Shown here piece after piece: positions 59,641 through 64,000 of a stretch of DNA of 64,000 bases. Position 1 is the stretch's first letter. Every line of letters begins with the position of its first letter. The stretch spans positions 124,001 through 188,000 of the forward strand of contig NAUB01000023.1 in assembly GCA_003676145.1 (NCBI GenBank). The letters run 5' to 3'. The notes below the pieces were generated by a model, which was not told the DNA's origin, did no database searches, and saw only the letters and a list, made by a program, of their open reading frames with translations. A program made the position numbers and the translations under genes. The stretch comes from a gamma proteobacterium symbiont of Stewartia floridana (GTDB lineage Bacteria > Pseudomonadota > Gammaproteobacteria > Chromatiales > Chromatiaceae).

Positions 59641-60534
59641 TCAGGGTGTCAGCCAATACTGTACATCCTGATTCTGTAGAAAAGTTTCCGCCTCAGGACC
59701 TTGTAACAGCGCCAAGGTGGCCAACAGCCCGGCCTCGGTGCAAGTCGCCGCCGCAACCGTTGCCGATCGTGATGCGGCATCAATTGGCCAGCCAGTTTTG
59801 GGATTCAGTAAATGGCCATAACGTTTTCCATTGTGCATCAGATAACGCCGGGTATCGCCACTGGTCGCGAGGGCGCCACGACTGATCTTCAGCAGACCCT
59901 TTGGTGTGTCGGGATGACTCGGATTTTCAATACCAACCGACCAGGGTTGCTTGGAAAGCCTCATCCCGCCTGTGCAGATATCACCACCGTAGTTGATCAG
60001 CAGCGCCCTGTCGGTGTGCTGCTGTAACAGCTGCAGAGTACGATCCACTGCATACTCTTTGCCGATGCCGCCAAAGTCGATCTCCATACCTTCAACAAGG
60101 GTCAGAAAGGGCCTGTCCCAGGTCAGTTTCTGCCAACCCACAAAGGGCATGATCTGTTCAACCTGTTGCTGGCTGGGCAGTTGACTGCCACCATCAAAAC
60201 GCCAGATACGCCTCAGCACACCGGACGTGATATCGAACAGACCCTCACTCAACTGCCAACAGAGCTGGGCAAAGTCGAGCAGCTGAGCGACCTCCTCATC
60301 GACTTCAACTGGATGCCCGCCACTGTTGTTGATCTGATGGACCGGATTGTCATTGAGATAGCGACTGAACTTGGACTCGATGCGCCAGGCTTCCTGGGCA
60401 GCGATGTTGAGCAGCTGCCTTGCCTGTGCTTCCCCGTCGACCTCCATGAACAGCTCACAGGGACTTGCCATGGCTTCAAACGAACCGACCCAATAGCTAT
60501 CTGCGGCAATCAGTTTGACTGGGCGATCGTTCAC
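59641..60534 (-). CDS. apbE: FAD:protein FMN transferase (ApbE family)
   Basis: 297 residues. ApbE attaches FMN covalently to Thr/Ser of partner proteins. Family motifs: FEAMASPCELFMEV near residue 20, WRIESKFSRYLNDNPVHQINNS, LFDITSGVLRRIWRFDGG, IDFGGIGKEYAVDRTL, LINYGGDICTGG and GALATSGDTRRYLMHNGKRYGHLLNPKTGWP. The start is GTG at 60534 just after GGAAGGATA; the frame has no earlier start before a stop codon. No signal peptide or lipobox is visible, unlike the usual exported ApbE. Last gene of the thioredoxin-DUF4266-DUF3570-apbE operon, 68 bases after DUF3570. Confidence 0.9.
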   Translation of the reverse strand: MNDRPVKLIAADSYWVGSFEAMASPCELFMEVDGEAQARQLLNIAAQEAWRIESKFSRYLNDNPVHQINNSGGHPVEVDEEVAQLLDFAQLCWQLSEGLFDITSGVLRRIWRFDGGSQLPSQQQVEQIMPFVGWQKLTWDRPFLTLVEGMEIDFGGIGKEYAVDRTLQLLQQHTDRALLINYGGDICTGGMRLSKQPWSVGIENPSHPDTPKGLLKISRGALATSGDTRRYLMHNGKRYGHLLNPKTGWPIDAASRSATVAAATCTEAGLLATLALLQGPEAETFLQNQDVQYWLTP

Positions 60535-60602
60535 TATCCTTCCGCCTGGGGCCTCTATGAAACCGGCGACTTAGGCCTGGTAATAACGGGTGGCCAAACA
60601 GC

Positions 60603-61877
60603 TTAAAACTTAAAACCTAACTGGACAATAATTGCTTCAACATCGGGATAGAGCTCCACATCGTTGAGTATTCCCGGAACCACCGACTCGGTATTGTCAT
60701 TGCTTTGCAGATAATATTCCAGGCGCAGACTCAGCTCCTGTTCATTCCTCAGGGCCATCCCATATCGTATACCGACAGTCAGCGCCTGCATATTCCCCAG
60801 CCGGTAATCGGCTGAGACATGATCAGGCAGACTTTCACCCTGTATCAAGAAACGCCGATAGAAATCCGCTTCACTCTGATCGTAGTAACGGATATGCGGC
60901 TCCAGATAGTGTCGGCCATCCAGAATCCAGCGGTAACGCAGGTCGATGGTATGGGATGTGATACCCCAGTCGTCCCAGAAGTAGCGATAGGAGAGATCAA
61001 GGATATCCGTTTCAAACTGATGCTTCACCTGCCAATAGAGACTCTGCTTCTGACGCCCATCCGGACGCTGCTCATAGCGGTACTCCAGCGGGCGTCCATC
61101 ATCACCCACCACACTGACAATTTTAAATGGATCGGTGAGATAACCGGATACATCGCTAAACGAATAACTCACCTGCATGATGGTCTTGCGATCGATCACC
61201 TGAGTGAGGCCGATAATCAGATCCAGGATATCCTTGTTCTCCTCGCTGTCTCCCCGGGTGGCATTGAACTCGCTTCGATAATTCGCTTGCCCGTTATCGA
61301 TGACCATGCTTGACAGACCAAAGGGGATATTGCCCTCCGGATTTACCGTATCGTAGGCCAGCGAGAGCCCGGTGTTCAGCGTGGTGTTACGCTTGTTGAA
61401 GTCCCTGGAGAGATTGGCATTGGCACTCAGTGAACTGTAATCATACTCGGTTGAAAAATTGATACCGAAACCGGTTTTGTAGTCCCGGTTGATTGGCTGT
61501 TCCCACTGGGAACTGAGAGCGAACCGATTATCCCGAAATGTATCATCCAGTGGCGTCTCCTCCGCCGCAGCAGTATAGGCGCCCTTACCTGAGGGCCGGG
61601 TAAAAGTCTGTGGTTGATCGCTGGGCGTTGCGCCATTGGCCGAGGCCCCACTCAAGGTATCGAAAACAAATTTCAGGTTCAGCGCCCTCTCTTCACCAAA
61701 ATCCCGCGTAGCACTGATTACCGGCTCCACAGCAGTTACCCTGTCCACTTCGGAGTAGTAGAGTACTGCACTATCGAAACTCCAATCCCCCTCCTCGCCC
61801 AGACTGTCGCTACTGTTCACCCCAAGCAGACCGCAGGTTGCCGCGGTCAAGGCATGGCGTATCTTTTTCGGCTTCAT
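60603..61877 (-). CDS. DUF3570 outer-membrane beta-barrel-like protein
   Basis: About 424 residues with a weak signal peptide (KIRHALTAATCGLLG) and then alternating amphipathic strands ended by aromatic residues through to a C-terminal Phe (VQLGFKF), as expected for an outer-membrane barrel. Near residue 75 is VFDTLSGASANGA. The part D-T-L-S-G-A-S fits the D-x-x-(S/T)-G-A-(S/T) pattern flavinylated by ApbE in RnfG/NqrC-type proteins. The ATG at 61877 overlaps the DUF4266 stop (TGATG); a TTG at 61892 is less likely. The function is unknown; pairing with apbE suggests a flavin-bearing envelope protein. Confidence 0.8.
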   Translation of the reverse strand: MKPKKIRHALTAATCGLLGVNSSDSLGEEGDWSFDSAVLYYSEVDRVTAVEPVISATRDFGEERALNLKFVFDTLSGASANGATPSDQPQTFTRPSGKGAYTAAAEETPLDDTFRDNRFALSSQWEQPINRDYKTGFGINFSTEYDYSSLSANANLSRDFNKRNTTLNTGLSLAYDTVNPEGNIPFGLSSMVIDNGQANYRSEFNATRGDSEENKDILDLIIGLTQVIDRKTIMQVSYSFSDVSGYLTDPFKIVSVVGDDGRPLEYRYEQRPDGRQKQSLYWQVKHQFETDILDLSYRYFWDDWGITSHTIDLRYRWILDGRHYLEPHIRYYDQSEADFYRRFLIQGESLPDHVSADYRLGNMQALTVGIRYGMALRNEQELSLRLEYYLQSNDNTESVVPGILNDVELYPDVEAIIVQLGFKF

Positions 61878-62098
61878 CAATTGCACCCGCAACCCCCTCC
61901 TGCAAAACCCCGGCCCCCGCTCGATGCCTCTTTACTGAAATAGATATGGTCATCGAGACCAGCACTGAGCGGATCTGAAATCAACTGCATCTCGGGTTTG
62001 GCAAGAACACTGCGCTGCCAGGGTTCGACCCCCAGATTCGCGCAACCAGCAAGTGATAAGACGACAGCAACTGTCACCAGGAACAACTTTACCGACAT
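61877..62098 (-). CDS. DUF4266 small lipoprotein with Gly/Cys-rich C-terminus
   Basis: 73-residue lipoprotein. Signal peptide MSVKLFLVTVAVVLSLAGC has a good lipobox (SLAGC). The mature part holds the family motif VEPWQRSVLAKPEMQLISDPL, then DDHIYFSKEASSGGRG and the terminal FAGGGCGCN. The final C-x-C pair could be redox-active or bind metal. I used the ATG at 62098; the frame continues to 62143 without need. It is coupled to DUF3570 by a TGATG overlap and lies 71 bases after a thioredoxin-like gene. The family is known to occur with DUF3570 and apbE; its role is unknown. Confidence 0.85.
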   Translation of the reverse strand: MSVKLFLVTVAVVLSLAGCANLGVEPWQRSVLAKPEMQLISDPLSAGLDDHIYFSKEASSGGRGFAGGGCGCN

Positions 62099-62169
62099 AC
62101 TCTCATCATCCTTATACTTCGCAGCAATACAGGAAACGGACATTTTGACAAAGTTTTATTTAACCAATC

Positions 62170-62661
62170 TTAATGGACAGGATTCAATGCCCGCAAGATC
62201 TCCGCCTCACGTTCGGCTGCTTGAGATCGAAAGAAACCGGTATGCGTGACAAGAAGCCTGCCATCCCTGCCGATCAAATAGGACGCAGGCATGCCTTGCA
62301 GGTCGTAGCGTTTGGCTAAAAGCCCCTTCGGGTCGTAGTGAATGGTGAACTCAACTGGTGTGTTAATCAGGAACTGCTGCGCCTCTCCACGTACCTCATC
62401 GAGATTGATGCCAATAATCTCCAGACCGGCACCCTGATACTTTCGATGCATCTCATTCAACCATGGAAAGGCTTCACGACAAGGGCCACACCAGGACGCC
62501 CAGAAATCGAGCAGTACCACCCGACCCCGGTATTGTTCAAGATCGAATTCCGATCCCTGTTCGTCTCTCCTTGGCTGCTGCGCCGCGTCCATCTCTGCAA
62601 CGAAGAAGAGCAGCAATGGAATCAGGGTGATAACAAATAGAGAGGGATTGATGTGTCTCAT
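62170..62661 (-). CDS. TlpA-like periplasmic thioredoxin
   Basis: 163 residues with an N-terminal signal sequence (residues 5-26, SLFVITLIPLLLFFVAEMDA). The thioredoxin fold has the active site WASWCGPCREAFPWL, the cis-Pro region DLQGMPASYLIGRDGRLL and the family strand VVLLDFWASW. Exported TlpA-type proteins usually reduce specific partners. It is the first gene of the DUF4266-DUF3570-apbE operon, and the C-G-C tail of the DUF4266 lipoprotein is an obvious candidate partner. The frame opens at TTG 62667; I prefer the ATG at 62661. Confidence 0.88.
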   Translation of the reverse strand: MRHINPSLFVITLIPLLLFFVAEMDAAQQPRRDEQGSEFDLEQYRGRVVLLDFWASWCGPCREAFPWLNEMHRKYQGAGLEIIGINLDEVRGEAQQFLINTPVEFTIHYDPKGLLAKRYDLQGMPASYLIGRDGRLLVTHTGFFRSQAAEREAEILRALNPVH

Positions 62662-62667
62662 ATTCAA

Positions 62668-63073: not shown

Positions 63074-63769
63074 ATGCTTAAAGGACTTCCTATACATTTT
63101 TCAAAACTCTCTTTCATTATCGGACTAAGCCTGTGGTGCAGCGTCGCATCCTCAGCCATTCTCTCTCCTGGCAGCAGCATCACGCTTAGTGGCACAACAT
63201 CCACCATCGAGCCGGATCTCGCAGGCACGATTATTCATGAAAACCTGATTGGATTTGAAGTCACAGATCCCAGTGGCGCCACACTGCTAACCGGCAACTA
63301 CCTGGATAGAGTGGTCAGGTCCAGCAATACCAATCAGCTTATCTTTTCAGGACGTATCCAGGACCTGGCCGTCACCAGCGAAAACAGTCTTGGGATCTAT
63401 GATTGGTTGGTAACAGGATTCAGCGGCTATCTGACCGATGTGGATTATCGCAGCGATGACATAGGTGATTTGGCTCCTGATCAGGCAACCAGATTGAATG
63501 ATGGCAACGATATCCTGCTCGATTTTCCCACAGAGTTGGAGCCACCCGAGTCCAGCCTGTTCTCATCGATTGCTACCGATGCGGCTCTATTTGACCTGTC
63601 CGGCAGCGCTTTTTTTGGCATCGAGGACTTCGTCAATGACACGGGTTATCTGCTGGAGCTCAACGGTATCGCTGCCCCCTCCCCGGTTCCTCTGCCCGCT
63701 GCGTTCTGGCTGTTCGGTTCGGCAATGATCGGTCTGATCGGATTTCAGAAACAATGCCGTAACGAGTGA
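63074..63769 (+). CDS. PEP-CTERM-type sorted exoprotein
   Basis: 231 residues. Signal peptide (FIIGLSLWCSVASSA) is followed by a beta-rich, Ser/Thr/Asp-rich domain of unknown function. The C-terminal sorting signal is VPLPAAFWLFGSA, then a short hydrophobic helix (MIGLIGF) and a basic end (QKQCRNE). This is the PEP-CTERM type common in biofilm-forming gammaproteobacteria and is served by exosortase A/B-type enzymes, not XrtH. The start ATG follows AAGGAG with ideal spacing. No exosortase for it is in the window. Confidence 0.82.
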   Translation: MLKGLPIHFSKLSFIIGLSLWCSVASSAILSPGSSITLSGTTSTIEPDLAGTIIHENLIGFEVTDPSGATLLTGNYLDRVVRSSNTNQLIFSGRIQDLAVTSENSLGIYDWLVTGFSGYLTDVDYRSDDIGDLAPDQATRLNDGNDILLDFPTELEPPESSLFSSIATDAALFDLSGSAFFGIEDFVNDTGYLLELNGIAAPSPVPLPAAFWLFGSAMIGLIGFQKQCRNE

Positions 63770-63808: not shown

Positions 63809-64000
63809 TCACTTTTTCAACTTTTTCTTCAGCGCCTTTTTCGAGGTGCTTGCCTTCTTCCTGGTTACAGCCTTTTTCGCCAGCGACTTTTTCCCTGTTG
63901 GTTTCTTAGCTCTCTTTGCCGTGACCTTTTTGACCTGGCTGCCCTTGCTCTTTTTCAGCGAACTCTTTTTCTTGGCGGCCGTTGATTTTTTGCTTAGCGA
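63809..64000 (-). CDS. C-terminal Lys/Ala/Ser-rich tail of a truncated gene
   Basis: 63 codons and a TGA (63809-63811) on the minus strand, open to the window edge. The sequence is a low-complexity basic tail of KKxxxKK-type units (AAKKKSSLKKSKGS, KKPTGKKSLAKKA, KKALKKKLKK), about half Lys. Such tails occur on histone H1-like and AlgP-like nucleoid proteins and as C-terminal extensions of DNA-binding enzymes. The body of the protein is outside the window, so I make no functional call. Confidence 0.6.
   Translation of the reverse strand, partial: SLSKKSTAAKKKSSLKKSKGSQVKKVTAKRAKKPTGKKSLAKKAVTRKKASTSKKALKKKLKK

Follow-up and report, generated by a model that had tools for sequence, protein, structure and literature searches.

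A DUF3570 barrel with a candidate flavinylation site and an adjacent ApbE without a recognised signal peptide in a gammaproteobacterial symbiont

The described DUF3570 system and the symbiont locus

Transferases of the ApbE family, which include cytosolic members, target the motif D-x-x-[S/T]-G-A-[S/T] and use serine less well than threonine as the acceptor of flavin mononucleotide (FMN), according to the excerpts available from a review (PMC12052999). In the closest described system, likewise known to us from excerpts (Meheust et al. 2021, eLife, PMC8238504), the DUF3570 protein of Chlorobium luteolum was flavinylated by its cognate ApbE upon co-expression in E. coli, and flavinylation was lost only when both of its [S/T]GA[S/T] sites were mutated. 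The same work describes clusters of ApbE, DUF3570, DUF4266 and thioredoxin, sometimes with DsbD (316 clusters are without it), and ties their role tentatively to iron. Here we analyze a locus of this kind in a 64,000-nucleotide stretch of DNA (hereafter, the window; contig NAUB01000023.1, positions 124,001 to 188,000, assembly GCA_003676145.1) from a gammaproteobacterial symbiont of Stewartia floridana; the nearest relatives are Candidatus Thiodiazotropha symbionts, at 93-98% identity.

Open reading frames and Pfam matches define a quartet of genes on the minus strand of the window, encoding a thioredoxin-like protein, a DUF4266 lipoprotein, a DUF3570 protein and an ApbE, and our analysis indicates that the DUF3570 protein very probably carries covalent FMN. 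The gene order and positions given in a preliminary description of this DNA were reproduced to the base, with matching Pfam families. Its suggestion that FMN is attached to the DUF3570 protein is supported by the flavinylation of the C. luteolum homologue by a cognate ApbE (PMC8238504, excerpts) and is correct but already published, and the window adds a member to the system of Meheust et al. New here are a barrel model with an outer Ser79, a clade of signal-less ApbEs marked by a Gly-Lys-Glu (GKE) signature, and a second DUF3570 type with its own ApbE clade.

The DUF3570 gene (60603..61877, minus strand; 424 residues including the signal peptide) matches PF12094 with 494.3 bits over profile positions 2-427 of 427, and its product is predicted by AlphaFold2 to be an outer-membrane beta-barrel. 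The motif D73-T-L-S-G-A-S79, with Ser79 as the putative acceptor, was located from sequence, alignment and the published motif at 61641..61661 (minus strand), where the codons read exactly as first described; numbering from D73 to S79 counts from the ATG at 61877, and counting from a TTG at 61892 yields the D78 of the preliminary description. The pattern named there as the ApbE target equals the motif given in the review excerpts (PMC12052999). The adjacent ApbE (59641..60534, minus strand; PF02424, 231.9 bits), for which no signal peptide was found, bears the GKE signature at 60055..60063 (minus strand), as read from the aligned column.

The locus has in common with the published system, as far as the excerpts of that paper go, the DUF3570, ApbE and DUF4266 families beside a thioredoxin-like gene, the [S/T]GA[S/T] target in DUF3570 and a C-x-C tail on DUF4266. 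It differs in that the window DUF3570 has a single canonical site (SGAS, residues 76-79), whereas the published protein has two, and in that its thioredoxin-like protein matches AhpC-TSA, Redoxin and Thioredoxin_8, whereas the paper names PF13899, a family that is not among the Pfam matches of this protein at E-values up to 0.1. NGAT at residues 81-84 was considered as a second site and set aside, given that it is non-canonical and that in most close relatives the tetrapeptide ends in V, which is unable to accept FMN. The locus also falls outside the DsbD-linked subtype, the strong DsbD_TM match of this genome lying on another contig.

The first gene of the quartet (62170..62661, minus strand) encodes an exported TlpA/ResA-like thioredoxin-fold protein (PF00578 AhpC-TSA, 73.6 bits; Redoxin, 67.5 bits; ResA-type models below cut-off) with a hydrophobic N-terminus and a W-C-G-P-C active-site motif at residues 59-63 (62479..62493, minus strand); it starts with ATG, an alternative TTG at 62667 being possible. 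The small DUF4266 lipoprotein (61877..62143, minus strand; PF14086, 81.1 bits) more likely starts at the inner ATG at 62098 than at 62143, giving a short signal peptide and the lipobox LAGC. It ends in GGGCGCN, and this C-G-C-N terminus (61880..61891, minus strand) is a candidate redox dithiol. The DUF4266 stop overlaps the DUF3570 ATG (TGATG). At 61877-61892 and at homologous starts, the last DUF4266 codons (CGCN) overlap the DUF3570 frame, which accounts at least in part for the 'RLRMQL' that recurs before DUF3570. Scans for promoters and terminators with simple consensus patterns gave no more matches than shuffled sequences.

Two other ApbE systems invite comparison. NqrC and RnfG, which belong to the FMN_bind family (presumably PF04205) and are served by a lipoprotein ApbE, have the D-x-x-[S/T]-G-A-[S/T] chemistry in common with the window DUF3570 but differ in their fold and in the periplasmic location of their ApbE, whereas the window DUF3570 is modelled as a barrel and matches only the DUF3570 family in Pfam, with no match to FMN_bind. 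The cytosolic ApbE of Klebsiella pneumoniae is signal-less, like that of the window, yet it acts on a soluble fumarate reductase, whereas the predicted substrate in the window is exported to the outer membrane (PMC12052999, excerpts). Within the set of papers covered by a word search, DUF3570 occurred in PMC8238504 alone, as did DUF4266, and word counts show no DUF3570 in PMC11334425 and its preprint PMC10979944, which model other ApbE substrates. The passages available from PMC8238504 contain no outer-membrane barrel for DUF3570, no outer-facing site and no signal-less ApbE. Similarly, the partial texts covered by a literature search yielded no signal-less DUF3570-linked ApbE and no flavin site at an outer mouth, although signal-peptide supplementary tables lay outside the search and may hold such a pattern.

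The flavinylation motif and the ApbE encoded beside it

Of 398 genomes sampled from the window's phylum, 29 contain PF12094. These genomes provided 33 DUF3570 loci (set 1, selected by family hidden Markov model and including the window), which were analyzed with their flanks and classed as apbE-adjacent when apbE lay within 2 kb (22 loci, in one of which, L046, apbE is divergently oriented), non-adjacent (10 loci) or undecidable (L054). Linkage could not be judged for L054, L110 and L141, where the contig edge is too near. The 80 further named loci, 73 of them with an adjacent apbE, were found by a scan that used the motif itself among its search patterns.

The canonical motif occurs anywhere in the region searched in 20 of the 22 apbE-adjacent and in three of the 10 non-adjacent proteins of set 1 (Fisher p = 0.001, kinship ignored), and in the exact alignment column in 17/22 and 3/10, respectively. 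The probability of finding it in a shuffled mature protein of the same composition is 0.0022. Three apbE-adjacent proteins (L055, L057 and L058) have SGGT in the motif column and a canonical site some ten residues further on, and the two exceptions among the adjacent loci have TGSS (L038) and ETMGGAS (L056). Non-adjacent proteins retain D, S, A and the acceptor S, with G replaced by S or N in 7/10 (S-S-A-S in five, S-N-A-S in two), and the undecidable L054 has DAITAAS in the motif column and DTLSGAS further on. Every sequence of set 1 (33/33) has Ser or Thr as the acceptor, and so does every sequence (84/84) of a larger alignment (A3) that contains pattern-selected rows. Motif conservation and its linkage to apbE, proposed in the preliminary description as a check, thus hold in set 1. 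Among the named apbE-adjacent loci the motif is found in 72 of 73 (the exception, L101, has TGSS), a count that is biased by selection, so that these loci serve as support for nothing beyond gene linkage and the finding on ApbE. In L096, DSLTGAS occurs in an open frame extending far upstream, and the apbE-adjacent DUF3570 frame of L044 (7266-10001) runs to 912 residues, roughly double the normal length.

DUF3570 has DUF4266 beside it in 33/33 loci of set 1 and is accompanied by the thioredoxin in 31/33. The DUF4266 protein ends in CGC[N/Y] in 33 of 34 matches of set 1, the remaining one being the gene itself truncated where L050 ends, and in 79/79 at the named loci.

The 29 genomes gave 65 ApbE matches in total; in a tree of them all, the 22 DUF3570-adjacent ApbEs form one clade (support 100/98) that contains no other ApbE of these genomes. 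Residues were counted by aligned column, regular expressions for the motifs being set aside as too strict. The conserved Lys is followed by Glu (GKE) in 22/22 adjacent ApbEs and by Gly (GKG) in 43/43 others, and all 22 adjacent copies retain the Asp of GGD and a His that we take to be catalytic. Signal peptides were scored with a hydrophobicity rule (threshold 1.9) and with a second rule that seeks a hydrophobic core, and neither rule finds a hydrophobic N-terminal segment in the window ApbE, which shows neither signal peptide nor lipobox by these rules. The threshold is reached by 0/22 adjacent ApbEs of set 1 and 0/73 at the named loci, two of which (L091 and L113) come from genomes already in set 1, and by 38 of the 43 other ApbEs of the 29 genomes; among these 38, the stretch before the domain is too short for a signal peptide in L189, and 37 were taken for testing. 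Five others stay under the threshold, namely L188, L190 and L191, plus L060 and L064, members of the second clade described below. As a separate observation, read by eye, a Vibrio replicon shows a DsbD-like frame after an ApbE that is similarly signal-less.

A model of the barrel and the site of the flavin

From the 84 aligned DUF3570 sequences of A3, the window's included, AlphaFold2 predicted a 16-strand barrel (predicted local distance difference test [pLDDT] 90.4; predicted template modelling score [pTM] 0.86), superseding a first run on 14 rows (pLDDT 79.1) in which the motif loop was disordered. The inner (periplasmic) turns span 2-5 residues and the outer loops 2-34 residues, and the outer side of the barrel was assigned from these lengths. 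In this model the protein has the features of an outer-membrane beta-barrel, namely an even strand number, short inner turns, long outer loops and a signal peptide. Foldseek matches such as FadL, OmpG and siderophore receptors are likewise outer-membrane barrels of a general kind. A fold search of the Protein Data Bank for a specific functional relative returned only generic barrels with low TM-scores, and no such relative was retained.

The model places the motif at the upper end of strand 3 (residues 64-80). Since Ser79 lies 16 residues from the periplasmic turn, strand lengths indicate that it should sit at the outer rim rather than mid-membrane, so that the modelled motif is not buried in the membrane, the case that the preliminary description had held would refute its proposal. 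Hydrophobicity alternates along strand 3, with residues 66, 68, 70 and 72 facing the lipid and residues 67, 69 and 73 facing the lumen. In A3, 37 columns are conserved at 88% or more, 20 of them in the outer strand half (113 positions), 12 in the outer loops (148 positions), four in the inner half (106 positions) and one in the N-terminal part. Thus, the outer half and outer loops hold 32 of the 37 near-invariant residues and 261 of all 424 positions (62%), a pattern suggestive of a site at the barrel's outer mouth, although pattern-selected rows inflate the conservation of the motif columns (outer) and of G223/Q226 (inner). Leu75 breaks the alternation of strand 3 and makes it uncertain whether Ser79 points to the lumen.

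Compartment of flavinylation, electron path and a second DUF3570 type

The DUF3570 protein is exported and the adjacent ApbE has no convincing signal peptide, which changes the likely order of events: attachment of FMN probably takes place in the cytosol, ahead of export by Sec. In the explanation that we favor, and consider reasonably probable as a whole, the signal-less ApbE would attach FMN, derived from cytosolic flavin adenine dinucleotide, to the unfolded DUF3570 precursor, which would then be exported and inserted in the outer membrane with the FMN on Ser79 near the extracellular mouth. A DsbD-type protein encoded elsewhere in the genome would probably feed the exported thioredoxin, which would exchange electrons with the DUF4266 lipoprotein through its C-terminal C-G-C, and this lipoprotein in turn with the barrel flavin, connecting the periplasmic thiol pool to something extracellular. 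Such a relay, in which thioredoxin and the DUF4266 C-G-C connect DsbD with the flavin, is suggested by the co-occurrence of the genes. We infer not only this relay but also the compartment of modification, the direction of electron flow, the acceptor and the physiological role; ferric iron would be one candidate for the external partner.

Several considerations speak against parts of this explanation. In the available excerpts, the published assay (PMC8238504) used signal-peptide-truncated proteins in E. coli, so that it speaks to the function of the pair in the cytosol and not to its native compartment, and the C. luteolum ApbE may or may not bear a signal peptide; ApbE is, moreover, typically periplasmic (PMC12052999, excerpts). 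Our signal-peptide calls rest on hydrophobicity rather than on SignalP, and the second rule flags 1/22 adjacent ApbEs in set 1 (L048, where the flagged stretch falls in the overlap of its frame with DUF3570) and 1/73 at the named loci (L101). Some DUF3570-adjacent ApbEs do have signal peptides, as in Hymenobacter L196, which has the other motif type, S-S-A-S. Lastly, a flavin at the outer mouth would be far from the periplasmic thiols, a distance to which a glycine-rich DUF4266 tail entering the barrel may be one answer, and DsbD is unlinked to the quartet in this genome.

The typical location of ApbE is also consistent with flavinylation in the periplasm by one of the two further ApbEs of this genome, both of which have hydrophobic N-termini, the adjacent ApbE then serving another cytosolic target. 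We regard this as unlikely: the adjacent ApbEs of all 22 loci fall in one clade that is exclusive within the 29 genomes, two genomes (G102 and G231) have no ApbE match other than the adjacent one, and the cognate pair was functional in the published co-expression (PMC8238504, excerpts). That the adjacent ApbE itself reaches the periplasm by an unrecognised route, leaving the usual order of events intact, appears quite improbable. The calls come from hydrophobicity rules only, and in 7/22 adjacent ApbEs more than 30 residues of open frame precede the domain; in the other 15, however, the stop-to-stop frame reaches the domain by residue 7-30, which leaves scant space, if any, for a signal peptide, and the rules do detect export signals elsewhere in set 1, with a hydrophobic core near the N-terminus of 29/33 DUF3570 proteins (second rule) and a lipobox pattern in 29/34 DUF4266 matches. 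It is very improbable that S-G-A-S is kept for barrel structure in a protein that is not flavinylated in this organism, for although the motif lies within an extended strand, its acceptor is the less favored Ser and its D, S and A persist without an adjacent apbE, a homologue is flavinylated at such sites (PMC8238504, excerpts), the adjacent ApbEs retain their conserved residues, and the class without adjacent apbE has an ApbE clade of its own.

This second ApbE clade (support 100/100, counting L187) occurs in the same 10 of the 29 genomes, the window's included (L049), that have a DUF3570 without adjacent apbE, and in 0/19 others. It lies approximately 6-27 kb from the second-type DUF3570 in seven genomes, approximately 100 kb away in G186 and on a different contig in G342 and G368, and 8/10 of its members have a hydrophobic N-terminus. 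Two Hymenobacter plasmids (L195 and L196) pair an S-S-A-S DUF3570 with a signal-bearing ApbE, which is frame-broken in one of the two. The co-occurrence of a separate, mostly signal-bearing ApbE clade and the Hymenobacter pairing make it likely, from sequence comparison, that the second DUF3570 type is also flavin-loaded, probably in the periplasm. We would give even chances to the broader proposal that the GKE clade loads the barrel precursor in the cytosol, FMN being threaded through Sec to the surface, while a sister type, mostly S-S-A-S or S-N-A-S, is served by the separate clade, so that one cell would flavinylate two related barrels in two compartments.

In the window's own genome, the second DUF3570 set (C1:226000-268000; L049, L180 and L067) lies near HZS_alpha/beta-propeller, LamG and TPR genes, with an ApbE bearing a hydrophobic N-terminus approximately 27 kb off, and another genome (L065, L181) has a comparable set, judging from N-terminal reads. 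In the Bacteroidota plasmid operons, DUF3570 is annotated in two pieces (L196) and ApbE is split over two frames (L195).

Neighboring genes were counted at 93 apbE-adjacent loci, leaving out L091 and L113, which duplicate set-1 genomes, and the named loci without adjacent apbE. DsbD lies within 7.5 kb in 24 of the 93, a histidine-kinase/response-regulator cluster accompanies 58, and a module containing a cupredoxin is present in 17-21. None of the three was found at the window locus, where the upstream side ends at 64000, and they were not used for the mechanism. At L034, L036, L081, L084, L108, L120 and other loci, the quartet is flanked by a cupredoxin, a polytopic membrane protein and a protein of approximately 236 residues with no known function; in four layouts examined, the module stands beside a histidine kinase. 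The loci with this module, where named, we take to be Alteromonadales. The plus strand of the window (63074-63769) encodes a secreted-looking protein with a C-terminal tail of VPLPAAFWLFGSAMIGLIGF type, which resembles a PEP-CTERM sorting tail; the homologue of this protein at L069 matches no Pfam family.

The GKE signature and the two ApbE clades offer a simple rule for sorting such operons, checked so far in the one phylum from which all our ApbE statistics come. Attachment of a cofactor in the cytosol to a protein that is exported unfolded would, if true, be out of the ordinary. If a flavin does sit at the barrel's outer mouth, it would constitute a heme-free surface redox site for Gram-negative cells.

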